Origin: Hexactinellida sp. DTS-2022
Taxonomy: Eukaryota > Porifera > Hexactinellida
Direction of reading: 5' to 3'
Length of the DNA: 64,000 nt
NCBI GenBank assembly: GCA_028753945.1
Contig: JAPNXP010000014.1
Span: 2,356,001-2,420,000 of the forward strand
Positions 4,706 through 64,000 of this stretch are shown in pieces. Made by a program: the position numbers and the translations under genes. The notes under the pieces were generated by a model. That model made no database searches. It saw only the letters and a list, made by a program, of their open reading frames with translations, and was not told the origin of the DNA. Numbering within the stretch: the stretch's first letter is position 1; each line of letters opens with the position of its first letter.

Positions 4706-6815
4706 CGAGCCCTTCGGTCTCGGTCGCTTCGCGACCTTACTCTCCTCAAATTAAACCTTTGACATGTAAATTACACGTACTCAATTCAGTATGCTGCTAT
4801 TTGGGACCCCAGTATGTCAATATATTAATTAATTAATCATTCATTCATGTTATTTACTAACCATGATTTACTGCATAGTAAATTGTTTGTAAATAGTTGA
4901 ATTACTTTGATATGTAATATTTTGCTTATGTGATTGCCGTAAGCTAAATACATCATGAATAGAAATAAACTGATTGAAGCCAAGCTGGATTAATCAAGCA
5001 TGCAATTTCGGAAATAATGTAGGTGAAGATTAAATCATCAAACCTCAATATATGCAATGATGCAGCAATATGAGGTTACATTTTTGTTATTGCCTGGTGC
5101 AGATTAAATGCGAAAATTATAAAAATTTCTAGAGACATGCAATACATTCTGTTTTATAATGTGACAAAATTATTTGTTGATTGAACAAAAGCGTAAGAGC
5201 TAAATCCAAATTAGTTCCTACGTGACGTCACATTCCCATAAATCGGAACACGTGTGTCTCATTGTATGTTGTGTTATTATCGAAAATTGTAGGCGAATCG
5301 AATAAAAACTGAAATAGTTTTCCCAAATATGTGCCTTTATGACGTCATAATCCCGTTATTTCGCTTAGAAAACCAATAGATCGTTGTCGCAGTACAAAAT
5401 TATCCCTGTTTACAAATTTTTAGCTTTCTGGGACTCGTACTCTTTCCATTAATTCTGGACAAACACACACACAAACAACAATTGTTCTTTTAATATTACG
5501 AGCCCTTCGGTCTCGGTCGCTTCGCGACGGATCACTCTCTCAAAAAAGTCGCTTCGCGACTTTTGTTCGTTCGTGTTAGGCACTACGCGATACAATTAAC
5601 GGCCGCTTCGCGGCCTTTCCCTTCCCAAAAAAGCTATAATATTACTAATGAGTTCACCTGTGGCAAGTAAATTACACACTATTACTTAATAACGCGTGCC
5701 TAAAATTCATTTTGGGTTGTGATTACTGTAATTTGTTTGGGGAATTATGTTGAGTAAGTTATTCTCATTGCTCAATAGTTATTAATTATTGTTTAATTAA
5801 TAGCTCAATAGTTCTTAAGGGTAGCTCGTTCAGCTATATTAAAAGGTTAGCTTGTTAGCTCAATTAAATTGAGACATGTGGTTGGTAAATTACACGCAAT
5901 TAATTATTTCAGTAAATTGTATTGCAAAGTAATTTACTAACTCTGGGTGTAATCTCTCCATAAGAATGGTTTAAAGATGAGTTGCAAAATATTTGATTAA
6001 AAAAAAAATAGTACATAATAAACATTTATAGATCTCACCATAAACAATTCATTTTGCAGGAGCTGGGTTAGTGAATTATTTAATTTAATTGTTAGCAATA
6101 ATTAACATAATAAATCTCATCGTTAGGCAGAACCAAAATCCTAGATTACTTAACTTAATTCATTTCTAGTAGAAATCCTAGGTTCCATTGATAGTCTTAT
6201 TGTAGAAGCCAATATAGGTGTAATTGATAAACAATGCATTAGACTCTCATTGACGTAAGCTAAATACATCACGAATAGAAATAAACTGATGGAAGCCAAA
6301 CTGGATTAATCACGTATGCAATTTCGAAAATATTGTAGGCGAAGATTAAATCATAAACCTCAATATGTGCAATGATGCAGCAATTGGAGGTTACATTTTT
6401 GTTATTGCCTGCTCAGAATAAATGCGAAAATTATAAAAATTTCTAGAGACATGCAACACATTCTGTTTTATAACGTGACAAAATTGTTTGACATTTGAAT
6501 CAAAAATGTAAGAGCTGTATCCAAATTAGTTCCTACGTGACGTCACATTCCCATAAATCGGTATACGTGTGTCTCATTGTATGTTGTGTTATCATCTAAA
6601 ATTGTGAGCGAAGCAAGTAAAAACTGAAAGAGTTATTCCCAAATATGTGCCTTTATGACGTCATAATCCCGTTATTTCGCTTGGAAAACCAATAGATCGT
6701 TGTCACAGTACAAAATTACCCCTGCATGCCAATTTTCAGCTTTCTGGGACTCGTAGTCTTTTCAATTAATTCTGGACAAACACACAAACAGACAACAATT
6801 CCTATTTTAATATAT
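4706..6815 (+). repeat. Tandem pair of an interspersed repeat inserted in the P-like gene
   Basis: Two head-to-tail units lie here, about 4706-5496 and 5497-6815. Each opens with ACGAGCCCTTCGGTCTCGG followed by TCGCTTCGCGAC. Each ends with a ~540 bp block (4936-5490 and 6250-6790) that is about 90% identical between the units and finishes in an ACAAACACACA-rich tail and TTTTAATAT. The second unit carries extra sequence, including repeats of GCTTCGCGAC and GGCCGCTTCGCGGCC. There is no coding capacity. Removing the pair rejoins the P-like frame (VNELT-I-SALTIQNKLR). The class is unresolved: the simple-repeat tail suggests a retroposon end or a Helitron-like unit. Confidence 0.65.
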
Positions 6816-7114
6816 AGATCTGCGCTAACTATTCAGAACAAATTGCGTTATCCAGAATATAGAAAGAATACTCCTGAGTTTGTTGATACCCTTCTTACTG
6901 TTTGGAAATTATTCAACGTGAACACACCATATAAAGGAACACGTTTGAACGATAATTTCTCTAGACCTTTGACTTTTAATGACCAGCGATTTCTATTTTT
7001 AAGTCGTGTAGTTTTGGTTAGATGCTTGGCAAACTGAGTAAACAAACATACACCAGTTTTAGACATGCTTGTATTGCCTTACCACAAATTACCAATCATT
7101 TGACTCAATCTTGT

Positions 7115-7153
7115 CACAGTGGGCCAGGAGATGAAATTAGTCAAAATATTGAT
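7115..7153 (+). other. RSS-like 5' end of R1
   Basis: CACAGTG is followed by 23 bp and AATATTGAT. R2 has CACAGTG, 23 bp, AAAATTGAT at its left end, in the same register although most of the spacer differs. Confidence 0.5.
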
Positions 7154-7558
7154 AAGTGATATTATAAGTAATTTTGCTTGTTTCCTCTACTAAATGCTTA
7201 GATTAATTTCGAATTCCATTTTCAGGGTAACATATGCATACTAACTAAAGTTACAAGGATTGGAATCTTGTGGTAAATGAACATGCGAAAGTGATGATTA
7301 TGCAATATTGAAAACTACCATGTTTTGAGTAAGCTTATCTTGCATATCTAGCCAACCAGTAGTTATGGTCTCATAATAATTTCGCCAAATACATTACTAC
7401 ATTGTATTTTCAGCGTAATAACTTGACATTTCTTGTTATTTCCGTGAACAACCAAGTTTATAAATTGGAAAAAAATTTGATGAGAAAATGGTCAGTCCTT
7501 TAAATTGAATGTGGCTGCAAACTAAGAACACCGCTAGGTACCACTTCGAATTCAAGTA

Positions 7559-9574
7559 ATTTACTCTTTGGAAGGTGAGAAGTTCAAGTCAGTATGTACT
7601 CAACTCTCTAAAGTTAGCGAACAGCTGAAAAAGGACAGGAAGTCTTTAGATAGCTTAAAGGGAGAATGGTGGGATACTCCAATTCCTTGGAGCCCCACAA
7701 TTAGACCTCGAAAGAAGAGGTCTCTGGATAATGAAACTATCCAAATTGTAATTTCTCATGAAAGAAGAAAACCGTTGTCAGAGTTAACTGTAAAGCTCTA
7801 CGCACACGATTAGCTTCCCTTTTGAATGTAATCAATGTTATAGCAACCAAAGAAGAAACTGACATGAAAACAATAGCTAGTTATGCACTGCAACTGGTGT
7901 CAAACGAAGTTTATGATAAAAAGATCCCAATAGTCTGTAAAGAAATCATTCGTTCAGGTACTTTCTCCAATCCCTTGTCACAAATGCCTTTATCTAAGTC
8001 TGTATTTCTTATTGATCACCTTCAAATTGGCAAGCGAAAATACAATGAGCTTCGTCGACTTTGTAAAACCGAAAATTTTATATTTCATACTTACAATGAG
8101 ATTTCTGAATATCGTTCACAAGTTGTACTAAGTAATGAACTAAAATTCATATCAAGTACTGGTGATGAACATAGTATTGGAATTGCGATCTCATACAAAG
8201 TATTATTACATCACACTATCATACGTTTGTTGGAATCTATTGATGAAAACGAATTCGTTTATCCATTAACAGTTAAGATATCAGATGGACTGGATGGATC
8301 TGGAAGTCATAAGATTTATAACCAACAACATGGGAGTACAAATTTCGACACCAAAAACTACATCCTCTTTGCATTTACACTTTTGTCATTAAAGGACTAC
8401 TCTGGCAAATTATTGTGGGAGAACGAAACTCCTAATTCCCCATTTGGAGTGAGGCCTGTTTCACTGATTTGCCAGAAGGAGAATGAAAAGAATATAAAGT
8501 TCATTCTAGATACAATCATTAATCCAGAAGTTTCATTGATTGAAAAGGATGGAATATATATCCCTAATGGCCAAGTCATCATCCAAATCATGCGAACAAT
8601 GCTCGATGGTAAGATGTCAGCAATCTTATCAGGTGCAGGTGGGGCCAGTTGTCAGCTCTACTACACATTTCGATGAATTAAAAGATTTAGATCTCATCCG
8701 TGCGGGCTATCCAATAAACAGGTCAATAAAAGATGCTAAGCTCATCTTCGAAACAGTCGATAAGGAAGAATTTCTCTCTTTACCTTCTAATGAAAGGTTT
8801 GGGTTAACTCATGGCCAATCTCAAGCATTGATATCGTATCCGCATCCCCCTTACACTCATACACTTGTGTATTTCGATGGTTCATGCTGGTGATCTACCA
8901 TTTACAATCTGGAACTCACAAATGGGCTCCAACATCCAAACGTATTCAAGATTCAATGAAATTTGTACGTGTATTTTTATACGAAAAAAATGGAATGAGG
9001 ATTGATCAAGTAACCAGTGCTGGAGGAACAACATCAACTGGTAATATGGCTAGATCATGTTTTATGGGGAAGAAAAATTTCATTGAATGGATATTAACTT
9101 TGATTCCATTCGAATTTAGATGCCAATCAAAATAATACATCTCAACGTTTCTGTTATTCTGCGAATCTTCAACTGTGGTCAGGCAATTGACACAGATAAA
9201 CTGGACAAGGTATGTAAATACACCTATGAATTCATTTTTCTCGAACTCCCATGGGTAAATATCACTCCTTCTCTTCATAAAGTCTTAGCGCATAGTGCGG
9301 AGCTCATCCATAGCTGCAATGGTGGATATGGTATGAAGCAATACTCTGAAGAGGCTCTAGAAGCTTGTAATAAATTATTAAGAAATTATCGAGATAATCT
9401 TTCAATTCAAACGTTAGAGATATCTTTGTGCGTCTTATGAGCGAAAGTGACCCAATTTTGTTACAATTTCGCAAAGTTCCACAGTGTAAATATTGTGGGG
9501 CTATCAATCATTATTGTCGATTTACATGCAAAAATCATAAACAGAACACAACAGAACAGAATTCATTATTATAA
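7559..9574 (+). pseudogene. RAG1-core-like transposase of R1 (frameshifted)
   Basis: About 670 codons in five frames. A frameshift near 7795 joins the N-terminal part (from ATG 7568) to TRLASLLNVINVIATKEE. The central part holds SDGLDGSGSHK (8281), aligning with the RAG1 segment around catalytic D600, and LSGAGGASCQL (8629), aligning with the RAG1 CxxC segment, where the second Cys is lost in a small deletion. Then come INRSIKDAK, SIDIVSASPLH, VFRWFMLVIYHLQSG, WAPTSKRI, GGTTSTGNMARSCF, TPSLHKVLAHSAELI (RAG1 has TNYFHKTLAHVPEII) and SEEALEACNKLLRNYR (9348), aligning with RAG1 SEGNESGNKLFRRFR, so the catalytic Glu is kept (9360-9362). A Cys/His tail ends it. Shifts near 7795, 8660, 8830, 9120 and 9400 disable it. 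Colinearity with RAG1 is my own alignment from memory, and the second catalytic Asp could not be placed with certainty. Confidence 0.85.
9484..9538 (+). other. Cys/His C-terminal tail of R1 transposase
   Basis: The tail reads CKYCGAINHYCRFTCKNH: CxxC, then H-x-C, then C-x2-H, resembling a zinc knuckle. R4 encodes the aligned tail, with Tyr for the first Cys and a stop just before the second. RAG1-like transposases of lancelet ProtoRAG are known to have a CCHC-bearing C-terminal tail that binds the element end, so an end-binding role here is plausible but unproven. Confidence 0.6.
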
Positions 9575-9598
9575 TCTTTATTATGTGACATTAATGAT

Positions 9599-9968
9599 CA
9601 GAGGCGGCGCCACGCTGGGGCAAGGTGGGGCAAATGCCCCACCTGGCCTTCGGCTTGCCCCACCACTGGTGGGGCAAGCCTTATCAATAGCTTAGAATTT
9701 ATTTGGGCGCTTTTGAAGTTTTTTTCGCTCGTCTTCTTAATAGGACGCTTTTTGAACCCAATTTTGTAGCATGGATTACGTTTGAATTGGTTTTCATGTT
9801 TTAAACCTTGTTGTTACTGTTAGTCTTACCATGAAATTTCACCATCCCACTATTGTGTGTCTACCTATATTTTTTGATAGTGGTTTTATAGTTAAACATT
9901 TTGCCCCATCTCAAATGTCCCTTGCCCCGGCCAGCCCCATCGCTCATTTTGGTCTCGCGCCGCCACTG
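9599..9968. mobile_element. hAT-type MITE nested in R1
   Basis: The ends are CAGAGGCGGCGC and (inverted) CAGTGGCGGCGC. The flanks repeat TTAATGAT exactly (9591-9598 and 9969-9976), the 8-bp duplication of hAT elements. The interior is rich in GGGGCAAG/CTTGCCCC palindromes. It has the same terminal family as the MITE at 37416-37738. Confidence 0.85.
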
Positions 9969-10135
9969 TTAATGATTAATTATTAAACTACCACAATGAA
10001 TTCATAAATTCAAAAATTTATTATTGAACCTTTGAATAAAAGTGGTCACACAATGAATCCTATTATACCAAACGATTCCTAGGACCGATAACCTATACTA
10101 CAATAATACATTATATATCGCTAAAATTCAAATTT

Positions 10136-10174
10136 ATACCTACTTCTCGCAAATTGGCATTCTGGCCCACTGTG
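10136..10174 (-). other. RSS-like 3' end of R1 (heptamer, 23-bp spacer, 9-mer)
   Basis: On the minus strand: CACAGTG, 23 bp, AGTAGGTAT. The 9-mer recurs at the identical spacing in R4 (AGTAGGTAT), R2 (AATAGGTAT) and R3 (AATAGGCAT). Confidence 0.7.
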
Positions 10175-11134
10175 CTTGTGGCTTTACATAGTATGTGCTG
10201 TCCTCCTTTCTACAGATGGATCCCTTGGAACACCATTTCGGTCTATACCGTATGATGTCGGTTTCTAATTATCACATCTATCTTCAAATCCTTGAACCGA
10301 GCTTCGACCTAAAGATTCTAGCATAATGAAACATATTTACTGACCAACAAGACACTTCCTTTCAATCTATTCAGTCATTTGTTAAGTCATTTTCTTCTCC
10401 GTATAACGCATTCCACTACTGATGGTGAGTTCAATTTGGAGCCATTTCTTGATGAGATTAATGATCTATCAACAATTGATTGTGGTTCACAGTTGCTTCA
10501 ATCATTAGCCTTTATTGCAGGCTATACTGTCCATCAGTATCCGAAACAAACAAAACCGTGTCATGTCTGTCTACATATGCTAACAGTTGATAAATAATTT
10601 CTCAGTTGATAAATAATTTCTCCTGGACTCTCAGTATAAACTTCTGCAGCTAACGGACCGTGGCGGACTTAAATGTCCATCTGAGCCAGTTTTAAATTCC
10701 ATATTTGTTATATGGAAGACCTTTAGTGCCATCGAAAACAATAAAGAGCTGTTGGCGAAGCTTGTAAGTGGACATTCTAGAAAAATAATATTTGAACTCG
10801 CGTTGCTGTATTTGGAAGATAGTGATAATCGTGATCCAAGTATTTGGAAGTCTACTTGTATTAGCTGTGGTGTGTTTAGTTGGAACAGATTATCGAAGCT
10901 AGTCTTTACCGCAGCGAATTGCTTTCTTGCAAACAAAATTAAGAATTATAACTCTCTGGTCTAAAAAAGTATAGAAAGCGTAAATTTAAGAAATTCTCAT
11001 AATTATGTGTCTACTTATTTGTATTTACCATGATTTGTATTACTCTGTTTATTCTTATTTCTATTATGTAGTTAAGTGTGTCGTGTGTCACTGCTAGAGC
11101 CAGAGAGAGAAAGGAAAGAAAGCAAATAATGGGA

Positions 11135-11230
11135 AACGGACACTTCGTTCCTTGGACACTTCGTCCTCGGACATTTCGTACCGGACACTTCGTCCACGGA
11201 CTTTTCGTCCCTTGGACACTTCGTCCCCGG
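11135..11230. repeat. Array of GGACACTTCGTCC-like words, MULE terminal region
   Basis: Seven or so degenerate copies of GGACACTTCGTYC occur with a 13-16 bp period. Comparable arrays of other words flank the MULE genes at 39518 and 46737. This is probably the 3' terminal repeat of the element whose coding remnant lies at 11500-12135. Confidence 0.6.
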
Positions 11231-11499
11231 AAATTTCTAATATGAAAAATAGTACAGTAATAGAATGATAATTTATTGTGTTGCAGTAAAATAATATAAT
11301 ATGCGTACTATTACGTAGTATTATAATTAAGAGTAGGAATATGATGTGAGATTAGAATTCGAAATTATGTGCTATTCCTCTTAAAAATGTAAGAATTTCT
11401 CTATTATGATAATCTTCAACCAGTGTCAAGATTCGTGTATTTCTTGATTCACTGCGTTTGATGTTTTTGAAAGTTCTCCCGTTTCCCATTTAACTAGAG

Positions 11500-12135
11500 T
11501 GGCCTCCTTTAGTGATTGCTCACGCTGCAGATGATTAAAAGTTTAATAAAACCTGGATGTGAACAATTAATTCCTGATGCAAAGCCGTTATGTCAGCCTT
11601 CTATTGAATTGTTGGTTCGGAATAGTTTAGATCTCACTCGAGTATGCATATTCCAAATTCGAATTGGAAAGGGTGGTACTCGTCTGCTTTGATTTGCAAG
11701 TATCTTACAAATATAATTGGCCTCAAAATATTCAGCAATCTCTTAAGCTGATTGCGGAAAGTCACCCATTAGTATTGTAAAACAGTCGATAACATCATGC
11801 TCAGGTACAAAAGCTAGACTTGGTATCATTTTCATCCTGATTGCAAACTCTTGATCTTGGAGATATTGGATTGTCAGCCCTTTGGACTGAATTTGACGAT
11901 AAATACTTTGCTTCAAATGAAAAAAACATCCAGAAACAACAGCTATGAAATTTTCTTCTAAGGAGTTAAGTGAAGCTTTTTCAAAATCTACCATAATATG
12001 TGACGGATTTAAGCCAGGTTCGATTTCTATCAATTTTTAGAATATGTTGTCGTATGTTGCTTGGCGCTTATTTGTCATCAGTGCATAGAAGACACAGGGG
12101 ATGATGTATCCGTCTTTCTCACAATGAATTGTGTA
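11500..12135 (-). pseudogene. MULE transposase fragment (copy M3)
   Basis: On the minus strand the reading begins with KLYTIHCEKDGYIIPC. It continues through IMVDFEKASLNSLEENF (MULE catalytic-core Asp segment), GCFFHLKQSIYRQIQ, KMIPSLAFVPEHDVIDCF and, after a stop near 11746, IAEYFEANYI, RRVPPFPIRIWNMHTR and RTNNSIEG-stop-HNGF near 11600. The order and motifs match M1 (39793-41640). Two stops, at the QSA position and in place of the Trp of EGWHN, and the missing N-terminal finger make it a remnant. In MULEs of this type the N terminus is a FLYWCH-like finger, absent here. Confidence 0.7.
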
Positions 12136-12236
12136 TAATTTTTAAAAATTGACAGGGTACAACTTTAAAACTTTTTGTTCGTCTTAACCGGAAATTCGTA
12201 TTAACCGTGTTCGTACTAACGAGGTTCTACTGTATG
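12136..12236. repeat. Remnant of a mariner-type MITE end
   Basis: The segment ends in GTACTAACGAGGTTCTACTGTA, which read inverted (TACAGTAGAACCTCG) is a common Tc1/mariner-type terminus. Related words occur at 55453 and around 56612-57700. There is no second end or duplication. Confidence 0.4.
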
Positions 12237-12596
12237 CTCATTTCGAATTCGCTAGTAGCAAACTCTATTATATATATTGTTGACGTTTACATTAGGTAAA
12301 TAAATGGTTTGATTCAGAATGAACCTCTTTACTATCTTACGATTGTTATAAAATGGGCGAACAAGTATTCTGATATCAAATTTAAAGTGTACGGATATAT
12401 GATGTGAATATTTATTGTTATTGTTCATAAATAGTTATAAAAATGGATTAAAATTTATATGATATGGAGGGCAAAGGGTATTATAGGTAAATGCATATAG
12501 TAGAAAGACTTTGTCAACTAGGAATTGATAAATAATTATTGCATGATGTGGTGAAGTCGAAATTAAATAATGATATATAACACATACAGCACCCGG

Positions 12597-13035
12597 GCAG
12601 AAGTATTCGACCACCCAACATTTTTCCTTAGAAAATAGCACGATAGTAGGCCTAATAATATCGTTCAATGTATTACATATTGCTATTTTGAATTCAAATT
12701 CGTATTCTACGCATTAGAATTACCCATTGTAGATGCTTTCAAATTGATTACATATTAATTCGGTAGAAAATTATCATCAAATGGCAACATGTGCCACGTG
12801 TTCCCATCTCCACCATAGTGGAAATTTGGGAAAAGTGGTGCATAGTGGCACACTGACAGGATGATAATTTTTAACCAAATCAAAAGGGGATTGAATTGAA
12901 AGCTTCTACAATTGTTGATTCGAATGCGCAGAATACGAATTTGTAATCGAAATAGCAATATCTCATATAATTTGAATACACTATCTTCCATTGTTCAACC
13001 TACTATAGTACTAATTTCAATGGGAAAATGTTGGA
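12597..13035. mobile_element. TA-flanked MITE, family T1 (copy a), right end eroded
   Basis: The left end is CAGCACCCGGGCAGAAGT, followed by the same ATTCGACCACCCAACATTT word as T1b (40252-40736). The right side keeps the inverse TTTCAATGGGAAAATGTTGG but the last ~25 bp are lost. The preceding TA suggests a mariner-type target. Confidence 0.65.
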
Positions 13036-13592
13036 CATAACAAAATGAGCATAGCATTGATGCTCCCTGGTAATGCGGTTCCCAGTGTACAAAAATAAAC
13101 TACAAAGGAATATAGGTGACTGGTTAAATAAGTTACCACTATATTACTCAAACTATGAAATTAAACAGTATTACAGTGAACTCCAAGTCGGCTTTATAAC
13201 GAAATTCAATGGTCCGGACATCCTTATATTCGACTAGACTATAGTCAAATATATCGATATAATGAAATTCTGTTTTTGGCGAAGATATTTATTTGTAGAT
13301 AATCTGAAGTTGTTTGATAAGTCTTGTAATTCGTGTTCAGCATTGATACAACAGGTTAATAGTGATCGAAGTAGTTTTGGATATAAAGGATGGCTGTAGG
13401 GTTATCTGAGGCTCTGTGCAAACTCCAACGCACTTCGCGAATTATTGAGTCTTTCGTTCTATAGACGTTATTGGCAACGTAGACATTGGCATCAAGAATA
13501 GCAGAAGCAGCATAAATTTCCACATCTGTTCCCCAAACTGATTCATGATTCATAAGTACTTGTGTGGTAAGGTATCTACACTGTGTCATTTG

Positions 13593-14737
13593 CACAGTGG
13601 TTTCGAAGCAAAGAATAGCAAAAAAATTGATTTCATTTTGAATGGTTTCAACTTTCAACTCCTTTTGGATTGGTTAAATGACTCTAATTTCAAATTGCTA
13701 ATCAATTGAGTGCCTACAAGTGATAAAATTCTTGCTTCAATTATGCATTAAATTTAGTCAAGATTGCGGTTTCGGTAATTCTAATATTAGACTCATTTCT
13801 AGTTAGTGCTAGTTCATTTTGGAATTATCTAATAAGCTGCATTCAACTTTTTTATATATAATTCGAATATGCTAAATATAATTCACTTGTTTTGAATACT
13901 CTATCTTCAACACATTAATTTAAATTCAATTTTATTTCTGGTACTTCAACACAAGTGTAGTATTATTTAAAAAAATTTGAAGTAACCGCAAAATTAAACA
14001 CCAAAAAACACCACTGAGAAATTAATACTTGTTATGCAGAACAGCATGTAGAAACATATATTAAAATGACAAACCCCGAAACAGTGCGCAACTTTGAAAA
14101 TTTTAGCGAATTCCATTGTCTCTTTGTGTTGCTATGAAAATGCTAAAAATAATTATTCGCTACTATTCAGTAGTACATCTTATTGGTTACCAAAATGTAT
14201 GTAAATATTGTATATTAAGAACAACTGAGCACTTTAGTACAATTTCATCAATGAGAGCAGCGAATTATGAACTCATATTGGGATTTTGATATTGAAGGAA
14301 GTTAGTTTTGCACAATTCGGAGGTTATTTAGAGTAATGCACAAGTGACAGCTATGCTAGAAAAAGTTATCTAGGGTTTATATGAGTTCTAATACACATTA
14401 TAATTACATTCAGTAACCATCTACCCCCCTTTACATGAGTGTACAAATCCTTATATCCTTTGGGAACTGGACTTTTACGAAATATTCCCCATGTTCAAGA
14501 TATTTGAACAATAACTGTGGGTGAGTATTAAAAGATTGTTAACAAACCAAAAAAATTTGTGTTTCATTGATTTACAACAAATCGCCCAGAACTAAGCTTA
14601 AAAGAGTTGATACATCATTTTTGATGATGCCATTCAATTCGCAGCTATCAATAACCCATATGCATTTAATACATTTCATATGTCTATCTGCAACCAGGAT
14701 ACCTATTCTTTACTAACTCCCATTTTAAACCACTGTG
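13593..14737. mobile_element. R2: non-autonomous RAG/Transib-like element
   Basis: The ends are CACAGTGGTTT (13593) and its inverse (ending 14737), with a perfect 5-bp duplication ATTTG (13588-13592 and 14738-14742). It is 1145 bp with no plausible ORF. Its right ~330 bp are homologous to the right part of R3, so they are one family. It sits in exon 3 of the OTU gene. Deleting it with one ATTTG restores the uninterrupted reading TKQ-MTQCRY, which independently confirms the borders. Confidence 0.85.
14699..14737 (-). other. RSS-like 3' end of R2 (heptamer, 23-bp spacer, 9-mer)
   Basis: Minus strand: CACAGTG, 23 bp, AATAGGTAT. The spacer differs from R1 at most positions while the heptamer and 9-mer agree. 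Confidence 0.7.
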
Positions 14738-19212: not shown

Positions 19213-20375
19213 CACAGTGGGCCAATAGGGGGAAGTAGGAGTATTTTTCATACTCACGAATATAGGGCATATTATTATTATCGAATTAAGCATTGTCTAA
19301 AACCTAGAATGCGAAGTTTATCAAGTCCTATGACTTCAAAATTTTGAATACAGTGAGTCTGAATGAATGATGTGATATAATTGGAATTAGAGATTGAATA
19401 TTGCGGTTTCACAATCGGAAAGATTCTATTTATAAAGTCGCCCTGCATAGTATAATGACTGAAACTGAATAGGTATTTCATTTTCTAAGTATTCAAGCTT
19501 AATCTCATTGCTATAATGGGAATGCTTATGAATGCTATTCACGTAAAATTAGATATCTAATTTTACGGTTTTACTCCGGATCGGACACAAATATATTTGT
19601 CAATATAGTTGGAAATTATGTCTTGGGTGCTCTTGGGTAGGAGATTTTATGTTTTCTAATAGTAATTTATCATCTTAACTTTAGTTTAAGATAATTTTCA
19701 GGCCCGCACAAAGCCGCACAGTATATAATTTATTCAATTTGGTATTGGCCTCTAATGAATCTCGTAAAAATGAGTAAAAATAAAATAATTGATTGTAGTA
19801 CATTTTTTTATTATTTCAAATAACTGATGGTCTATAATAAGCAACGAAGAAGCATCTAATCATTTGAATACAAAATTAGCATTCAGCGCATCAACCTATG
19901 AACACATCCAGGCTTTTGAAACTCCGGTAAGTAACATTTATAAGATTCGGAGGGGATTTAATGAACTAGCTATTATTCCCAATATATGACAAAGCTATAA
20001 AAAACGATCTAAGGTCCCAAAGAGTAGTTGTACTTGCGATAATGACACTCAGTAACCATCTATCCTCTTTGTATCCAATGTAATATATTGTTTTCCAGGC
20101 ATTTGACTAGGCTTTCATTATTTTTTCCCATTGTTTAAGTTTTTTTATCAAATATCATGGGTGACTAATAAAAGATTGTTAACAAACCAAAATTTAGTTT
20201 TTCATAAAATTAGAACAAATTACCCAAAACTCAACTTTAGAGACTGCATACATAATTTTTGATGATGCCATTCAATTTCCTGCTATCAATAACCTATATG
20301 TCAATAATACTTCACAAGTGGCTATCTGCTAACAAAATGCCTATTTCCGCTAAACTGTCTTTTTGGCCCACTGTG
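19213..20375. mobile_element. R3: non-autonomous RAG/Transib-like element with an 8-bp junction insert
   Basis: The ends are CACAGTGGGCCAA (19213) and its inverse (ending 20375), 1163 bp apart with no ORF. The right flank is AAGAC (20376-20380). On the left the same AAGAC lies at 19200-19204, but separated from the heptamer by GTACGTAC. Removing the element, one AAGAC and the 8 bp restores the THAP start MSCLVPGCR, so AAGAC is the true duplication. The right third is homologous to R2. Confidence 0.8.
20337..20375 (-). other. RSS-like 3' end of R3 (heptamer, 23-bp spacer, 9-mer)
   Basis: Minus strand: CACAGTG, 23 bp, AATAGGCAT. Confidence 0.65.
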
Positions 20376-26334: not shown

Positions 26335-28248
26335 TTATGAAGAGTCCTCACAGTCTGGGCAAAAGTAGGGGGAATCGTTGTATGCTGCGACCTTTTTCAC
26401 GCCAACGCATCTGCCATGATACCAGCGATCACAAAGGTCACATCCTATCCACTCGTCGACCTTTCGCTTGCGGCCAATAGGGCAGTTGCGAGACTCACAG
26501 GTGGCACATACTGAGTCTGACTCTTCCCCACTATCAGGATCTGTGTGCGATTGAGTAGCGAGGATTTCTGTTCCAAATGCACCAGGGATGTGCTTAGAAG
26601 CCTTCTTCTCCCTCTTCTGGCGTGAGGCTTCGGCCGCCTGGCTGCGGACTTTCTGTTGGCGTCTACGGCGTCTCTGGGTCTCAAGAATCGCCCTCTCACG
26701 TTTCATCATTCTAGTCTTGTCTCTTGAAGCTAGGTGGTGGACAGTGGATGCTGACAAGGCAATCCCGTATTCTCTCAAGATAGCTGCGAATGACAGAGAG
26801 CCCTCGTTGAAACTAGCTACTGCCAGTGAGGTGCTGCATTCAAGGGACTTTTGTCCGACGTATTTCCCTTTCGGCGAGTTATGCCAGACGACGGAATGGA
26901 GAGACTCATTGGCATTTTGGGTTTTGCCCATAGTTAGTGCTCCGCATACTTCAAGGGAGGCGAAGGTTTGGAAGACTTGGGTGAGGCGAACTATATCGGT
27001 GTCAGTGCAGTAAGGAACGCGGCGTTTGGGAAGAGGCACAGAAGGATCCAATGCAAACTGCGCTTGGGCCTTCGCGAAATAGCACCAGGATTCGCAGGTG
27101 ACTGGACAGTTCGTGTGGTCCTCTCCCAAGTGCCCAACTAATGTCCAAAGGGCTTGTTTTATTACTTCTGCTGGCTTGCCCTTATTCTGCACGACAACTA
27201 AGGCATACAGTTGGCTTATCCTCTCAGCCTTCGCCTTCGGGATGGAGGCTGATGTTGCAAACTTTTTGGACAAATGCTTTTTGACCCGTTTCTGTAGGTG
27301 ACCAAGGCACTCTTCCTTTCGAATCGGTTCGAGGCCTTCATACGGGTCAGATTCTAGTACTCTTTTGAAAGAGGATGAGTCGCCGTCCCCAATATAGGTG
27401 CTGTAGACTAACCCATTACGCTTGACTGACCTTTTCCATAGGTCAACAGCAATCGCTCCCTCCATGGCCTGGCTCGTACCAAAGAAATTGATGGTACAGT
27501 TGGTGTGTTGTTCCTTGAAGGTCTCATATTCCTCGGGAAAGGATGCTTTTCTTTCGTCCGACCAATTACTACACTTCTTGCAGATTCGCTGCAAAAGTCC
27601 ATAATCGAGGACCCTACCACTATTGGAATCAATAGCCGCGCCGAAACCTTGATTGGAGTAATGGCCCCTCCTATGCCACGAAGCGTCATAACTCACGTGA
27701 CAGCGTGTTACACCATCGATTACTGATGGCTCAGAATCAGGTCTACTGCGCACCTCTTCAACGGCAATGTCCATCGCAATGGCAGACACTTTAGAGGTTA
27801 CTTGAGTGAATTGTTCCATTGATCTTTTATTGAGATTCTTCTGCGGTACCGGGAGGTCCAGTAGCGCGCAGGCTAAGCGAAAATCCTGCCAGGAGAAGGA
27901 TGTTGTGTGAAGTGCGAGAGTGGCACGCACATTGATTTCACTGCCACTATGTGTCATCTTCTTAGGATTGTTCACAGCCTCTGATAAAGATTCGCCAATA
28001 TGAAGAGAAGTAGGGAACCGTGCTACAACTGAATGACATCGATTACAATGCAACACGAGGTAGGATTGCAGCCCAGGACTATGAGGATATTTGTGCAGCT
28101 GTAGTATTCCATGGCAATTGGGTTCTTGACATCGAATCAAGCTGAACACACTAGTGAGAATGTCCATATTGATTATCTCTGAACCATGGGGAACAAACAG
28201 TGACCTCGTGGAAACGTTACCACCATCGTTGAGGACAGAGGCGCCCAC
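26335..28248 (-). CDS. Mutator-like transposase with C-terminal PHD finger, intact
   Basis: One 637-codon open frame. Residues 40-71 form a Cys-rich N-terminal finger (C40, C45, C68, C71). The catalytic core has VSYDASWHRRGH (D188), YIGDGDSSSFKRV (D288, D290), KEECLGHLQKRVKKHL (310-326) and NANESLHSVVW (E448), the layout of the animal Mutator-like transposase family. Residues 512-555 are strongly basic. Residues 581-633 form a complete C4HC3 PHD finger (C581, C584, C603, C606, H611, C614, C630, C633), a module that usually reads histone H3 tails. Base composition (near 50% GC) and codon use differ sharply from the AT-rich neighbours, and no damage is seen, so I infer recent arrival or selection. 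Upstream in-frame codons (to about 28255) reach a stop quickly, so the ATG at 28248 is the likely start. Confidence 0.88.
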   Translation of the reverse strand: MGASVLNDGGNVSTRSLFVPHGSEIINMDILTSVFSLIRCQEPNCHGILQLHKYPHSPGLQSYLVLHCNRCHSVVARFPTSLHIGESLSEAVNNPKKMTHSGSEINVRATLALHTTSFSWQDFRLACALLDLPVPQKNLNKRSMEQFTQVTSKVSAIAMDIAVEEVRSRPDSEPSVIDGVTRCHVSYDASWHRRGHYSNQGFGAAIDSNSGRVLDYGLLQRICKKCSNWSDERKASFPEEYETFKEQHTNCTINFFGTSQAMEGAIAVDLWKRSVKRNGLVYSTYIGDGDSSSFKRVLESDPYEGLEPIRKEECLGHLQKRVKKHLSKKFATSASIPKAKAERISQLYALVVVQNKGKPAEVIKQALWTLVGHLGEDHTNCPVTCESWCYFAKAQAQFALDPSVPLPKRRVPYCTDTDIVRLTQVFQTFASLEVCGALTMGKTQNANESLHSVVWHNSPKGKYVGQKSLECSTSLAVASFNEGSLSFAAILREYGIALSASTVHHLASRDKTRMMKRERAILETQRRRRRQQKVRSQAAEASRQKREKKASKHIPGAFGTEILATQSHTDPDSGEESDSVCATCESRNCPIGRKRKVDEWIGCDLCDRWYHGRCVGVKKVAAYNDSPYFCPDCEDSS

Positions 28249-28280
28249 AGACCCCTAAAAAAAGATACGCACAAATTTCA

Positions 28281-36994: not shown

Positions 36995-39127
36995 TCTCCT
37001 TAAAGCACTTTGATATACCGGATAATTTAGATGCGAATTTCAAAGCGACATGCAAATATTGTCTGAAAGAAATTCCAGGTTGTTTAAAAGTTACATCCAA
37101 CTTCATCAAACATATGAACGAAATCACCTTAGTAAGGCCATCCTTTACTACAAGCTGAAGTGTATGTACAAAGCAAGAGTTACGAACTGGAGGGAGTAAA
37201 GCAAGAGCATCATCTTCTAATTCAAAATTTGGATCACCGTAGTTTTCAATATCATCTTCACTGTCACTTTGATCGGATTCCTGCTGTAGAGTGTCGAACC
37301 CAGGTAGACTGAATGCATTTACCATATTGTACGCGTTGTTAGTAATGATGGTCGAAAATTTCTTATTGATTTCAAAAGAGCTATCATTTCCTGAAATTTG
37401 TCATATATGTTGCAACAGTGGCGGCGCGGGGGTGCGGCCGCCCCCCGCGCTTTTGATTCGCCCCCCTTGTTGGGGGTTGGGAACTCGCTTGTCTGTTATA
37501 GGAGTACTTAATGTTAATGCGGAAATGCTATACGCCCTGGATAGACAGTCCATAATTAGCTGTTTTTGCTGAGATGCCCCACCGTATACTATTATAGAAC
37601 AGATTATTTAACTAAGTTTGTCATTAAAAATATCGATTTTGGTTTGAATGTGAATTTTGGAATGTTTACAACTATTGGGTTTGCCCCTCCAGTACATTGG
37701 TCCGCCCCCCCAATGGGACTGTGCTGGCGCCGCCCTTGTGTTGCAAGCAGAATGTCTGCCTGAGAATCTGTGACATGCAACCATTATGGAATTTATTTTC
37801 CAGTCCAAGATGAAGTGACCAGTAATCTCTATATAACTCTTCATCCGTCTGTTTGACCAAAGGTTAGTAGTCAGAGCAATACTAGAAACTTGTTCAACCT
37901 TTTTGGCAATATTTTCGTGGATCTTTCTATATTTTCCCTATATCAGTTTAGTTGAAAGATGCTTTCTGCTAGGCACTTGGTATTTAGGGTCCAACTTGTA
38001 TATATATAATTTCGAATCTTGAATTCTCAACTGAGAGTGGCAGCAAATCCCTGCAATAAAATTCATAAGTTCATCAGTAATTTCAAGTTGATGTAAATCA
38101 TGATGAGGATACTTTTTATTCGAAGTGGTTAGTAGGTTAAGTTTCAGTTGTTTATCATCCGTTGGTTCTTTGAAACTGTAGGAGTTCTTCATACTTAATA
38201 ACAAAGCTGATATTTTTTCGAAGGTTAATTCGAAGGTATCTACAATCGTATCACATGTACGCAAGTCAACTGTTGCCACAGATGTACTGATTGGTGAGAA
38301 TAGGTTACAGTCAAGCGTCCCTATTCGTTGGAACTCACAACTAATAATGATTAAGTCAATCCTTAAAGTTGATCAAGATAAATTAAACGCCTTTGACACT
38401 TCCAAGTTAGCAGCATATGAACGAAACACACTCAGAGATTTTGTGGAAATCCTATCCCCTTTTGAGGAAGCGACCGATATTGCCCAAATTGAGAACAAAG
38501 TATCTTCAAGCTTAGTCATCCCATGTATAAGAGGTATAAGGGGTCAACTGTCAACACTTTGCATGAAATATTCTAACGCCTTACTAAAAGAACTTGCAGA
38601 ATCAGTTGAACGTCGACTTACCATTTATGAATCCGAAGATACATATACGACAGCTAGTATATTAGATCCTCGTTTTAAACTGAAGTGGTACAAAGATGGC
38701 AATGAAAGAGATCATCACAAAAGTGAACTATTGTCCAAGATGTATAAAATTGAAAACAAAAAATCAAACCGCCCAGTGGTAGTAGAGTGTGAAAGTAAAC
38801 AACCAAAATGAACTAAATTGTTTTCGTTTATGGATTCGGATGAAGAAGACACAGAAAACATATATATACGGATGAATCAGAGCTTAGAGAATATTTACTC
38901 AAACCAACTATTCCAGGAAACTCTAATCCACTTGCGTTCTGGGAAGATCATGCAGATACATACCCAAAACAAGCCGTATTAGCCATGAAACTTCTAGCAG
39001 TTCCAGCGTCATCTGCTCCTGTTGAACGCTTTTTCAGTATCGCTGGAAAGGTCTTTCGTCCAGATAGATGCAATCTTTCTGACAAAACTTTTGAAACACT
39101 GATGTTTCTTAGGTCTAATATGGATTG
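36995..39127 (+). pseudogene. hAT transposase of H1: BED finger, inverted middle, dimerisation domain
   Basis: The plus strand 36995-37128 encodes HFDIPDNLDANFKATCKYC to NFIKHMNE, a BED-type finger. From 37131 to about 38190 the gene is on the minus strand: SMKNSYSFKEPTDDKQ, ITDELMNFIAGICCHSQLR, YIEITGHFILDWKINSIMVA, CHRFSGRHSACN, IITNNAYNMVNAFSLPGF and CFVHTLQLVVKDGLTK. From about 38195 it is plus again: SKVSTIVSHVRKSTVATD, SSVPIRWNS, TTASILDPRFKLKWY and the C-terminal dimerisation segment AVPASSAPVERFFSIAGKVF (39000-39060), ending in a TGA at 39125-39127. Re-orienting the middle gives the canonical hAT order. Stops and frameshifts also exist, and a MITE (37416-37738) sits in the inverted part. 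Confidence 0.85.
37416..37738. mobile_element. hAT MITE nested in H1
   Basis: The ends are CAGTGGCGGCGC and, inverted, CAAGGGCGGCGC. A perfect 8-bp duplication TGTTGCAA lies at 37408-37415 and 37739-37746. It has the same ends as the MITE in R1. Excision restores the H1 reading GRHSACN-IYDKFQEM. Confidence 0.9.
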
Positions 39128-39792: not shown

Positions 39793-41640
39793 ATGGCCTC
39801 TGAATTACTCATTGAAAGAATCAAGAGCAACAAAAATAAAGACAAAGCCTCGCTAATGGGATATATCAATACGCTAAACCGAGTATCTGATGATATATTA
39901 TACTGGGCAAGTGAAAAACGTGTCACATGCAAAGCTAGAATTCATACGAGAAATGATGTTATAATCAAGCCTGTTCCAGTATCCGAAGTTGAGCAAGCCC
40001 ATACGCACACCCCTTCACAGGATCGTATACAGATGTTAAAGGATTATAGAAAAATGAAAGACACAGCATCTAATTCCGAGCAGAGCACTAGAGGTATATT
40101 ATCCTCCGGTTTAGAAAAAATGCATCCAAGTACTGTAAGTAAGCTACCACAATTGGAATCCGTGAAACGAACGATTCGTAATTACAAAAGCATGAGTATC
40201 GAAAATTGTGGCAATCTCACTTGCAGCTGTAATTATCATCCCTGAAAAATACACTACCCGTACAAAAGTATTCGACCACCCAACATTTCCCATTGAAAAT
40301 AGTACTTAGTAGGTTGAACAATGGAAGATTGTGTTTTCAAATTACATGAGATATTGATATTTCGATTAGAAATTCGTATTCTGCGCATTCGAATTAGCAC
40401 TTGTAGAAGCTTTCAATTCAATCCCTTTTTGATTTGGTTAAAAATTATCATCTTGTGCCACTATATACCACTTTTCCCAAATTGCCACCATGGGAGAGAT
40501 GGGAACCGGTGGCACATGTTGCCAATTGATGATATTTTCAACCCAATTAATATGTAACCAATTTGAAAGCATCTACAATGGGTAATTCGAATGCGTAGAA
40601 TACGAATCTGAAATCAGAATAGCAGTATGTCATAAAGTTTTATTACATTAAACAATATTATTAGACCTACTATAGTCTATAGTACTATTTTCAATGGGAA
40701 AATGTTGGGTGGTCGAATACTTTTGTCCGGGGACTGTATAAAAACTCTCTGAAAGGCGAAACCTTTTTACTGTATGATTAAGGGTTTGGGGATCAGCAAA
40801 GGATCATTATATATGGTACACTTAAATTTATTGATTTCCTAAGAAACTGTGATAGCTGGTTTTGCGACGGAACATTTAGAGTTGTTCCTGATCTATTTAC
40901 ACAACTGTATACAATCCATGCAGAAAAGGATGGTGAAATTTTCCCTTGTATCTATGCACTGCTTCCAAATAAAACTGAAGCTACATATGACAGATTGTTT
41001 AAGAAATTATTAAAAATAGTGCCATCATTAATCCCTTTAAGAATTATGGTCGATTTTGAGAAGGCTGCAATTAATGCCCTAGAGGAGAATTTTATTTCTC
41101 TAATTACGGGATGCTTTTTTCACCTCTCGCAAAATATATTCAGGCACGTTCAAGAACAAGGGTTGGCTGTACGATATCAAGGGGATAACGATTTCGCTAT
41201 TAGTATTAAGATGCTTGCCAGTTTGGCTTTTGTTCCAGAGATTGACGTTATAGACAGTTTCATAATTTTAATGCAACAGTTTCCAGAAGAGGCTATAGAA
41301 ATAGCTAAATATTTTGAAAAAACATACATAGGAAAAGTATTACCCGATTAGACTAGAAGGGTTCCATTGTTCCCAATAAGAATTTGGAATCTTCACACGA
41401 GGGCCAACAGCCGTCTAGCCAGGACAAATAATAACGTTGAGGGTTGGCACAATGCATTCAGATCTACAGTTGTATATTCGCATCCAAGTTTTTGCAAACT
41501 TTCTATGTTTCTTCAAGGGAACAGTCTATGCAAGAGGCCGTTCTTGCAAAATGGGAAGGTGGAGAAGTAAAAAAGTTCAAAAGCTATTATCGCACGTGAT
41601 AATCGCATCTTATCCCTATGTGGCCGATTAATAAAACCGT
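39793..41640 (+). pseudogene. MULE transposase with FLYWCH-like N terminus (copy M1)
   Basis: An ATG at 39793 opens a 150-codon frame: IERIKSNKNKDKASLMGYIN, ILYWASEKRVTCKARIHTRN (FLYWCH-like W-C-K-AR-HT pattern), then a linker. After the inserted MITE at 40252-40736 the core follows: SWFCDGTFRVVPDLFTQLYT (catalytic Asp), IFPCIYALLPNKTEATYDRL, IMVDFEKAAINALEENF (second Asp), GCFFHLSQNIFRHVQ, KMLASLAFVPEIDVIDSF and YFEKTYIGKVLPD. A stop at 41349 follows, then RRVPLFPIRIWN and ARTNNNVEGWHNAFRS (41420-41465; the Glu of EGWHN is the likely third acidic residue). Few lesions make it the best preserved of three copies. Confidence 0.8.
40252..40736. mobile_element. TA-flanked MITE, family T1 (copy b), nested in MULE M1
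   Basis: The ends are CACTACCCGTACAAAAGT and, inverted, CAGTCCCCGGACAAAAGT, both followed by ATTCGACCACCCAACATTT. TA lies on each side (40250-40251, 40737-40738). The 485-bp element is almost palindromic over its outer 200 bp. Confidence 0.85.
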
Positions 41641-42086: not shown

Positions 42087-43439
42087 TTAAAAAATGGCAC
42101 TCAGTTGTTTAACTGAAAGTTTGTTATGAAGATAAGCGAAACCTCTAGCTTGCTGTAAAATCAACTTTAATGGAATAGTGTAACTGATTTTCAAAAAATA
42201 TTCAAGTATATCTTCAATTGTTACACAGGTTTTCATCAGCTCTTCATGATAACATGCGCATATTGACAAACAAATATATATGATAAATATTGTATCATAA
42301 CTTGAAGATATGATCGCCGTGATAATAGCCTGACTATCATCTTGTGAAAATTCTCTTCTACAATTAACCAAAAACCATCGGTGACTAAATAAAAATTCCA
42401 AACCCATGTCAATTTCTTTAAGATATTTATACAAAGATGGCAAGAATATATATGTAAGTTCTCTCAATTTGACGACAAAATCGTGAATACCACAATGTTT
42501 GTCTCTTGTATTTTCAAAAGGAGTTTTCTTTACAAGTCTTACAAAGCACCAAAAGGTTATTTCTTCTGTTCGTATAGAATTATACAAGATTGAAACAATA
42601 TCTGACATTCCTTGGTGATAACCAACTTTTCGATTATATGAAGCAAATTTTAATAATAATCTTTTTAGGATTGCATAATTTTCATTTAATAAAGAAACAT
42701 CAGTGCGGGCGACATCTTGCTCTATAGATCTTTTCAAGGTCGACCAGTTAGATTCCCCTAAACTAAGTTTTAGCTCAGCGATAGATATTTTTTCATAGTT
42801 GCTTAGAAGTTTTTTAAAACATGTCATATGCTCCTTTTCATTATAAAAAGGTGGGTAAATATTAAAAAGTATAGGCCATATATTAGGCAAATGTTGAATA
42901 GAGATTCCAGAGTAGAAAATATGCCGCTTAAGAGAAGTAAGATTGGAAATACGTCCATTAGTACTAGTATAATTTTCAAAATTAAGTGTAGTAAATAATG
43001 GATAGGTGCCTTCATGGATGCTACATAAAGATGAATGAAGAAAAGATCTGGTAACTTTACAAATTATTTCAGTAGATGGGGGACAACTTTTAGAAATTTT
43101 GCAAAGAGGCCATTTATACATAATTTGTAAAAAATCAGTAATGCCTTCCTCAAACCTGAATACATAGAGTTCATCTTCCAAAATATGTATAATTACACTT
43201 CCACCAGGGTCAGTAGCTGAGATTGTATCCTTTATTATTTTAATCAATTTAATGTGCCGTAAATCTATTTCAAAATATTTTCTAGTTGGAAATAATGTAT
43301 TTTCTTGCTCTATCCATTTAAGCAACATTGGCGAATCATAGATGGATAAGGACTCAACTGATAACGTTAGTAAACCATTATGAATGTTCATCATATCTAT
43401 TTCCCATCTCACCGTATTTCTTGCGTAGAGTTTTATCAT
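42087..43439 (-). CDS. TBC-domain Rab-GAP, TBC1D16-like, single exon
   Basis: 450 codons, no interruption. TBC domains accelerate GTP hydrolysis by Rab GTPases with an Arg and a Gln finger. Here they are IEQDVARTD (R245) and GYHQGMSDIV (Q276), within a domain at about residues 170-400. Also present are WPILFNIYPPF (188-198), FWCFVRLVKKTPF (296-308) and FLFSHRWFLVNCRREF (349-364), all standard TBC blocks. The region after residue 370 resembles TBC1D16 best. The N-terminal ~110 residues look like the leading domain of TBC1D15/16-type proteins. It is as AT-rich as its surroundings, unlike the young transposases, so it is probably a resident host gene. The lack of introns could mean an old retrocopy or a 3' exon. 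It lies just beyond MULE M1, with nothing operon-like. Confidence 0.85.
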   Translation of the reverse strand: MIKLYARNTVRWEIDMMNIHNGLLTLSVESLSIYDSPMLLKWIEQENTLFPTRKYFEIDLRHIKLIKIIKDTISATDPGGSVIIHILEDELYVFRFEEGITDFLQIMYKWPLCKISKSCPPSTEIICKVTRSFLHSSLCSIHEGTYPLFTTLNFENYTSTNGRISNLTSLKRHIFYSGISIQHLPNIWPILFNIYPPFYNEKEHMTCFKKLLSNYEKISIAELKLSLGESNWSTLKRSIEQDVARTDVSLLNENYAILKRLLLKFASYNRKVGYHQGMSDIVSILYNSIRTEEITFWCFVRLVKKTPFENTRDKHCGIHDFVVKLRELTYIFLPSLYKYLKEIDMGLEFLFSHRWFLVNCRREFSQDDSQAIITAIISSSYDTIFIIYICLSICACYHEELMKTCVTIEDILEYFLKISYTIPLKLILQQARGFAYLHNKLSVKQLSAIF

Positions 43440-43845
43440 TATAAACTAAATGATGATCAATTGATTTATTAGTCCCAAATAGGGTGAAACTTCAGTAATA
43501 AACACCTCCTAGATTTAGTAGAGGTAGGTTAAAACGCGATATGTACACGTCTAGAACTCGCTAAATGATGAAGATAGACTAAAATAAACCAAAACCGGAC
43601 AAAAATAGACAAAGTTACGGCCAAAATCAGTCATAAGCCAAATCGTATGGCGAAAATTGATAACATCACTGAAGCCTTTTATAATATAAACAATCCTACA
43701 AGCCTCAACAATAGTAATGGTATCATATATACGTTATACGTTACGTATAATGCAACTATGCGATTTATAGGTTTCATGTGAATTCCAATTCATTACGCAA
43801 ATACAAATTCGTTAATTACTATTTTGCTACAATTTTACAGCTTAA

Positions 43846-60264: not shown

Positions 60265-60303
60265 CACATTGGGCCAGAATGCTAGTTTTCGGGAAGTAGG
60301 TAT
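60265..60303 (+). other. RSS-like 3' end of R4 (heptamer, 23-bp spacer, 9-mer)
   Basis: CACATTG, 23 bp, AGTAGGTAT. Read inward this is the same end as R1 10136-10174. Confidence 0.7.
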
Positions 60304-60519
60304 AAATATTAACTTTAGCGATACGTATATTATGTATTATTGTACTATAGGTTATTGACCCTTAGGAACCCATTTATTCAAAGAGATTCATTGTGTGGCC
60401 ACTTTTCTTCAAGTTATGGTTTTATATTGAATTTTCATATAATGAATGTATTGTGGTTGTTTAATAGTTAATCAATAATGTTATGTAATAGTGATTCAAC
60501 TAATAAATTCTGTTCTGCA

Positions 60520-63302: not shown

Positions 63303-63310
63303 GTTCTGCT

Positions 63311-64000
63311 GTGTTGTCCTGATGTTTTCTACATGAAAATCGACAGAAATGTTTGATTGCGGCACACTATTTATATTTTGGAACTTTGCGAAATTTTAAT
63401 AAAACAGGATCACTTTCACTCAAAAGACGTACAAAGACATCTCTAATGTTTGAATTAAATGAACACTTTCTTGAAAGATGCTCTCGATAGTTTCTAATCA
63501 ACTTATTACAAGCCTCTAAAGCTTCTTCAGAATATTGTTTCATCCCATATCCATCATTGCAGCTTTGAATGAGTTCCACACTATGTGCTAAGAGTTTATT
63601 GAGAGAGGGACTGACATTTACCCACGGAAATTCGACGAAAATAAACTCGTATGTATATTTACAAATGTTGTCCAGTTTATCTGTGTCAATTGCCTGAGCA
63701 CAATTAATGACTCGCAGAATAGCTGAAAGATTGAGATGTATTAGTTTGATTGGTTCTCTTGATTCTAATGGTATTAAAGTTGATACCCATTCAATAAAAT
63801 TATTCTTACCAATGAAACATGATCGAGCAACATCACCAGTTGATGTTGTTCCTCCACTACTCGATACCTGATCTCTCTTTATCCCAGTTTTTTCTAGTAA
63901 GAATTCACGTACAAATTTCATTGAATCCTTAATACGTTTCGATGTGGGGCCCATTTATAAGTTCCAGATTATAAATGGTAGATTACCAACATAAACCATC
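63311..64000 (-). pseudogene. RAG1-core-like transposase of R4, C-terminal part
   Basis: From 63954 the frame reads GPTSKRIKDSMKFVREFLLE, SSSGGTTSTGDVARSCFIGK, IHLNLSAILRVINCAQAIDT, NVSPSLNKLLAHSVELIQ, SEEALEACNKLIRNYREHLS and NSNIRDVFVRLLSESDPVLL, about 75% identical to R1. The Glu in LEACNK that aligns with RAG1 E962 is present. A TAG at 63365-63367 cuts the Cys/His tail, whose remainder (CAAIKHFCRFSCRKH) is still legible on to about 63320. Upstream, a one-base deletion near 63950 and a TAA in YHL-stop-SG show further decay. The N-terminal half lies outside the window. Confidence 0.85.

Follow-up and report, generated by a model that had tools for sequence, protein, structure and literature searches.

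A degraded Transib transposon in a hexactinellid sponge genome and its relatives with asymmetric two-part ends

The DNA analyzed here is a 64,000-nt stretch of contig JAPNXP010000014.1 from the sponge Hexactinellida sp. DTS-2022 (assembly GCA_028753945.1), hereafter called the window. It contains, at positions 7115-10174, a 3060-bp element that is very probably a decayed copy, no longer coding, of a cut-and-paste Transib element with a large, recently mobile population in this genome; its identity as a Transib is virtually certain. From this transposon family came the RAG1 recombinase that assembles antibody genes. Several features were observed directly: the terminal sequences, the target-site duplications, the uninterrupted insertion sites, the protein family, the near-identical copies elsewhere, and two spacer classes with their pairing. 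Taken alone, the window copy is unremarkable, a dead member of a known transposon superfamily, and its population is the more interesting object. The elements of this population carry one short and one long end, an arrangement that resembles the 12/23 rule of V(D)J recombination, the likeness being one of layout.

The first-pass annotation of the window had described perfect 13-bp inverted ends opening with CACAGTG and the pentamer CTTGT on either side of the element, and had regarded termini, duplication and protein as mutually confirming. In an inverted-repeat scan the two termini (CACAGTGGGCCAG at the 5' side; coordinates in Table 1) were indeed complementary at 13 of 13 positions, and CTTGT is present at both flanks. 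The same scan found 14-bp perfect inverted pairs elsewhere in the window; because pairs of this class are not rare there, the inverted ends alone prove little, and what identifies the element as a transposon is the pentamer duplicated at its flanks, together with the protein and with further copies that have the same ends. When the flanks were joined with one CTTGT removed, at least 40 places in the genome matched, the best at 94% over the full length. At the four sites inspected (L052-L055) the sequence is continuous with a single CTTGT, the base immediately preceding it being different in L052, and therefore the element entered one copy of a repeat and duplicated 5 bp. The interrupted multicopy repeat, to which the frames 6696-7037 and 10322-10964 belong, is a putative THAP/P-element-like transposon; a Pfam search of three of its frames flanking the element gave no match. 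The element was itself interrupted by a younger nested insertion, which we take to be a hAT-like non-autonomous element from its end sequence and duplication length. Two related copies hold an extra 315 bp at window position 7568/7569, so the window copy has probably also been internally deleted.

The transposase blocks of the window copy are spread over five overlapping, mutually shifted frames and an additional C-terminal frame, and a coding region split in this way is unable to make a protein. Thus, the blocks colinear with the RAG1 core that had been noticed at first are real, but they do not form one frame. Two of the pieces matched HzTransib in the PDB (7762-8673, E 3.3e-7; 9120-9437, E 9e-6), whereas the Pfam RAG1 profile matched one of five pieces, weakly (E 0.0038) and under the curated cut-off. 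A predicted structural model aligns with the HzTransib chain from model residue 164, and the predicted fold supports membership in the Transib/RAG1 family. The initial assignment to the Transib/RAG lineage is therefore upheld by the ends, the duplication, the uninterrupted sites, the protein family and the predicted fold.

The whole genome (112,398,167 bases in 18 contigs) was searched for coding matches with one piece of the transposase. At least 134 matches were found, with 130 of 622 candidates scored and some copies matching more than once; 13 of the 134 lie in stop-free open frames of at least 690 amino acids (aa). Many matches are merely 40-56% identical to the query piece, and the relatives therefore fall into several separate families. 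Seventeen pairs of ends agree at no fewer than 11 of 12 positions; an exact 5-bp duplication flanks 11 of these pairs, a 6-bp duplication flanks one, a duplication with four of five bases equal flanks another, and four have none. At locus L015 (615-3669) the duplication is GCATGT, 6 bp rather than 5. Copies L021, L022 and L023 are 99.06-99.32% identical and have the duplications AAATG, CATGG and TAGTA, respectively, and L020, which has a different flank, is 99.78% identical to L021 across 2784 bp. Such near-identical copies in different target sites argue that the group moved recently. A second, minus-strand copy of the family of the window element occupies 60265-64000 and continues into locus L051; its 3' end lies at 60265, its coding matches at 63304-63998, and it is split by a hAT-type transposase gene (61394-63154) with DUF4371 and hAT dimerization domains.

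Four intact relatives (L017, L021, L023 and L024) contain one frame of 711-744 aa each and nothing else above 100 aa, in agreement with the earlier proposal of a single-gene element without RAG2. The RAG2 family PF03089 had no matches in the genome, and the control genomes likewise gave none. With an E threshold of 1, Pfam detected no N-terminal RING/zinc region of the RAG1 type in three full-length proteins (711-744 aa) or in a 502-aa frame. Named relatives accounted for 13 of 64 protein matches and, with a profile that included HzTransib and RAG1L fragments, for 16 among the best 120 of 186; all of them are from the glass sponge Oopsacas minuta. By these transposon relatives alone a hexactinellid host is probable, since Transibs can pass between hosts. 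Cytochrome oxidase 1 (PF00115) had no match in the assembly. One scan of GTDB prokaryote genomes returned 228 stretches fitting the patterns and no relative, although bacterial Transibs may be too distant for such patterns; bacterial members are reported in the text of Tao et al. 2022 (PMC9435367).

The relatives keep the layout of the RAG1 core. Between the zinc cysteines and the following histidine lies a loop that spans 65-69 residues in 103 of 136 proteins, the other 33 being not measurable with the motifs used. Against a length of 65 here, mouse RAG1 has 64 residues, amphioxus RAG1L has 60 and HzTransib has 30, the latter three counted by eye; helices were predicted within the sponge loop at residues 414-423 and 426-430. 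The HzTransib chain that was aligned (PDB 6pqn, 6pqx) is also shorter by about 160 N-terminal residues. A nonamer-binding-domain-like region, at about residues 90-160, is present in the relatives' transposase. A zinc tail similar to CTT1 was found, with the looser pattern C..CG..[GNS]H.{3,7}C, in 31 of the 51 proteins that reach the tail and was absent from 20, for example P0002 (from L024) and P0021. In the text of Tao et al. (PMC9435367) the CTT1 tail is given as Cx2Cx3GHx4C, and two groups of Transibs are distinguished: Subgroup I, with asymmetric ends, the CTT1 tail and a retained alpha11-alpha12 region that contacts RAG2, and Subgroup II, which has lost that region and has another tail. 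The sponge elements resemble Subgroup I in the zinc-domain region, in a CTT1-like tail motif in many proteins, in their asymmetric ends and in having no RAG2. Two of the three Subgroup I marks thus appear to be present and the CTT1 tail in part, if the alpha11-alpha12 region is judged by loop length. In sequence comparison, the scores of the sponge proteins against HzTransib are far above those against RAG1L or RAG1. A 33-row tree, which would have to be read as weak because it has three long branches and three outside sequences, separated the sponge proteins and HzTransib from RAG1/RAG1L with 100/100 support; the proteins of the present genome and of Oopsacas interleave in it, each label being somewhat clustered.

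The ends were compared using one representative from each of 11 families, by taking the best 9-base match between both ends. This match lies 9 bp deeper at one end than at the other in eight of the 11 families and 10 bp deeper in two, and it is unclear in one; shuffling bases 13-60 300 times never gave a shift shared by more than four families. In all 12 oriented elements with a match of at least 8/9, it is the 5' end, lying upstream of the transposase, that has the shorter spacing. Two more elements could be oriented, the window copy and L010; they have no clear offset and both group with L016, which has a shift of 9 and in which the nonamer-like motif of the short end is intact. At the genome level, the pattern CACAGTGG followed by 2-32 bases and GGAARTAGG occurs at 544 sites, and the reversed pattern at none. 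Spacing classes were counted on the first 100 of these sites, which lie on two contigs: the interval between the last base of the heptamer and the motif is 10-11 bp at 37 sites, 19-21 bp at 61, and other distances (15 and 27 bp) at two. Neighboring sites facing each other within 4.5 kb form 21 pairs, and 19 of them combine one short and one long spacing, compared to 45% mixed pairs expected from the class frequencies under random pairing; one further pair joins a short spacing with the 27-bp one. The letters of the motif vary by family (e.g. GGTCGATTA and AAAGAATAG) while the 9-bp offset persists, from which it follows that both ends change together, and such joint change with the spacing kept favors function over mere inheritance.

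On these grounds, a functional rule that pairs a short with a long end seems probable to us. Several observations weigh against it or against the identification as a whole. Four of the 17 end pairs have no duplication, one of them (window 9480-13585) probably being a chance pair, and in the family of the window element just two of the six copies having both ends show an exact 5-bp duplication. The short-end motif of the window copy is degraded to 6/9, and there is no clear 9-bp offset in this copy. One of the 21 facing pairs joins two long spacings, whose motifs are of different families and perhaps belong to two elements; 58 of the 100 sites counted, out of 544 and on two contigs, are in no facing pair. 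Finally, the families share ancestry, so that inheritance, and not maintenance, may account for the constant offset. The two spacer classes would then reflect common descent from one ancestral pair of ends and have no functional meaning, an explanation suggested by the relatedness of all families within one genome and by the window copy, which is still recognizable as a family member despite its lost short-end motif. We hold it to be rather unlikely, since the motif letters vary between families at a constant offset, and since the excess of mixed pairs is so far above the random expectation.

The alternative that the elements are RAGL rather than Transib, i.e. that they descend from a RAG1L-RAG2L transposon that secondarily lost RAG2L, draws on the RAG1-like length of the zinc-domain loop, the CTT1-like tails, the nonamer-binding-domain-like region and the asymmetric ends; an origin of Transib from RAGL through loss of RAG2L is raised as a possibility in the text of Martin et al. 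2020 (PMC7204232). However, the same features are reported for Subgroup I Transibs, and the nonamer-binding-domain region is not diagnostic because equivalents are reported for both subgroups in the text of PMC9435367. Together with the far higher score of HzTransib, the split in the tree, weak as it is, and the lack of a RAG1-type N-terminal zinc domain in the Pfam scan of four proteins, this makes the RAGL alternative very improbable. Still less credible is a chance similarity to Transib of an element from another superfamily (P, hAT, or CACTA/Chapaev): CAC-starting ends are known in other superfamilies too, and a P element appears in the Foldseek list (E 2.2e-4), but both fold and sequence contradict this assignment. 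A domesticated RAG1-like host gene is just as hard to credit, even though RAG1 itself arose by domestication, since the window copy is flanked by a target-site duplication, sits within a multicopy repeat and has shifted frames, and since its relatives are numerous, some of them nearly identical.

For a Transib population with a pairing rule, the following mechanism can be proposed. Intact relatives encode a single RAG1-core-like DDE transposase of about 712 aa, which, by homology with HzTransib and RAG1 as generally known, presumably nicks at CAC, forms hairpins on the flanking DNA and inserts the element as a dimer with a 5-bp stagger. Each end consists of CACAGTG and, about 11 bp (5' end) or about 20 bp (3' end) further in, the nonamer-like GGAARTAGG; the dimer may pair one short with one long end, and the distal motif may be read through the nonamer-binding-domain-like region. 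The most far-reaching version of this reading, a living, RAG2-free radiation of sponge Transibs that enforces 11/20 pairing at ends with the exact heptamer of the recombination signal sequence (RSS) and reads them with an ancestor of the nonamer-binding domain, is put forward tentatively, as a possibility that we rate somewhat short of even.

Known systems share parts of this arrangement. The vertebrate RAG1/RAG2 system with its 12/23 RSS has the same CACAGTG heptamer, a distal 9-bp motif and the RAG1-core fold, and likewise uses two spacer lengths about one helical turn apart. Its spacers are 12/23 in contrast to about 11/20 here, its nonamer in the text of PMC8289069 is ACAAAAACC compared to GGAARTAGG, and its recombinase is a host gene acting with RAG2, whereas the sponge elements are mobile transposons with no RAG2 gene. 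HzTransib ends are described in the text of PMC8289069 as symmetric, unlike the asymmetric ends here, and as heptamer-like with little or no nonamer likeness. RAGL/ProtoRAG elements have paired RAG1L and RAG2L genes, in contrast to the four single-gene relatives. In AanRAGL of the alga Aureococcus, as described in the text of PMC9435367, the two conserved end elements are 4 and 13 bp apart, and most families here show the same difference of 9 bp. AanRAGL differs in carrying RAG2L and in the sequences of these elements, CACACCCAAACCT and CCTCAA[C/T]A[C/T]G.

Table 1. Features of the Transib copy and its flanks, in window coordinates
Feature	Position	Strand	Support
Left target-site duplication CTTGT	7110..7114		one CTTGT here in uninterrupted sites L052-L055
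5' terminal inverted repeat, CACAGTG heptamer first	7115..7127	+	same 13 bases in L002-L005, L011, L016
Degraded nonamer-like motif GAAATTAGT, short end, 11-bp spacing	7133..7141	+	6/9 to GGAARTAGG in register, by eye
N-terminal piece up to RKPLSELT block (start of nonamer-binding-domain-like region)	7538..7813	+	7562-7795 matches P0020 37-113, E 4.9e-7
Piece with first two catalytic Asp blocks DGLDG, MLDGK	7762..8676	+	frame list, PDB match
Zinc domain with long loop (ELKDLDLIRAGYPINRS...), another frame	8540..8893	+	8672-8878 matches P0020
Piece HKWAPTS...GGTTSTGN	8794..9135	+	frame list, relative match
LHKVLAH zinc histidines and SEEALEACNK with catalytic Glu	9120..9440	+	frame list, PDB match
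C-terminal piece with CKYCGAINH zinc-tail motif	9398..9589	+	64% identity to P0010 644-707
Nested insertion, 370 bp of the 3060	9599..9968		8-bp duplication TTAATGAT both sides
Nonamer-like motif AGAAGTAGG, long end, 20-bp spacing	10139..10147	-	8/9, by eye
3' terminal inverted repeat, CACAGTG first on minus strand	10162..10174	-	same 13 bases in L016, L030, L037, L038
Right target-site duplication CTTGT	10175..10179		letters of window

The window also holds three shorter elements with related ends. The 1098-bp element at 477-1574 has CACAGTGG ends and the 5-bp duplication CACTG; it represents the sole family of the 11 without a clear end offset, and no transposase match was found in it with eight relatives as queries. 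The 1145-bp non-autonomous element at 13593-14737 has CACAGTGG ends, the 5-bp duplication ATTTG and a 9-bp offset with the motif AAAGAATAG at either end, and the 1163-bp non-autonomous element at 19213-20375 has CACAGTGGGCCAA ends and a 9-bp offset with mismatched flanks (CGTAC / AAGAC). Other long frames encode a 639-aa Mutator-like transposase whose C-terminus bears a PHD finger (26335-28254), a hAT-like RNase H that is weak and below the cut-off (38182-38811), and a MULE transposase domain (40782-41351). Of the window's long frames, the one most clearly resembling a host gene is a single-exon TBC (Rab-GAP) gene of 452 aa (42087-43445), for whose protein a search found six relatives, none of them named.

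A literature search by title and the start of the abstract found nothing on sponge Transibs among the papers listed. The words 'sponge' and 'Porifera' have no occurrences in the main text of PMC9435367, and term searches of the article texts found no 'Transib' in the Oopsacas genome paper (PMC10280926) and neither 'RAG1' nor 'transposase' in the Aphrocallistes paper (PMC10282587). With the present elements, the known RAG1-like transposons gain a probable sponge lineage. How adaptive immunity came by its asymmetric, bipartite recombination signals is a standing question, and here one genome offers 544 sites with heptamer and distal motif together with recent copies that have open transposase frames, so that the origin of 12/23-type pairing becomes testable in a RAG2-free system. 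If the 11/20 pairing is truly enforced, the core of the 12/23 logic would be older than the recruitment of RAG2 and than adaptive immunity.
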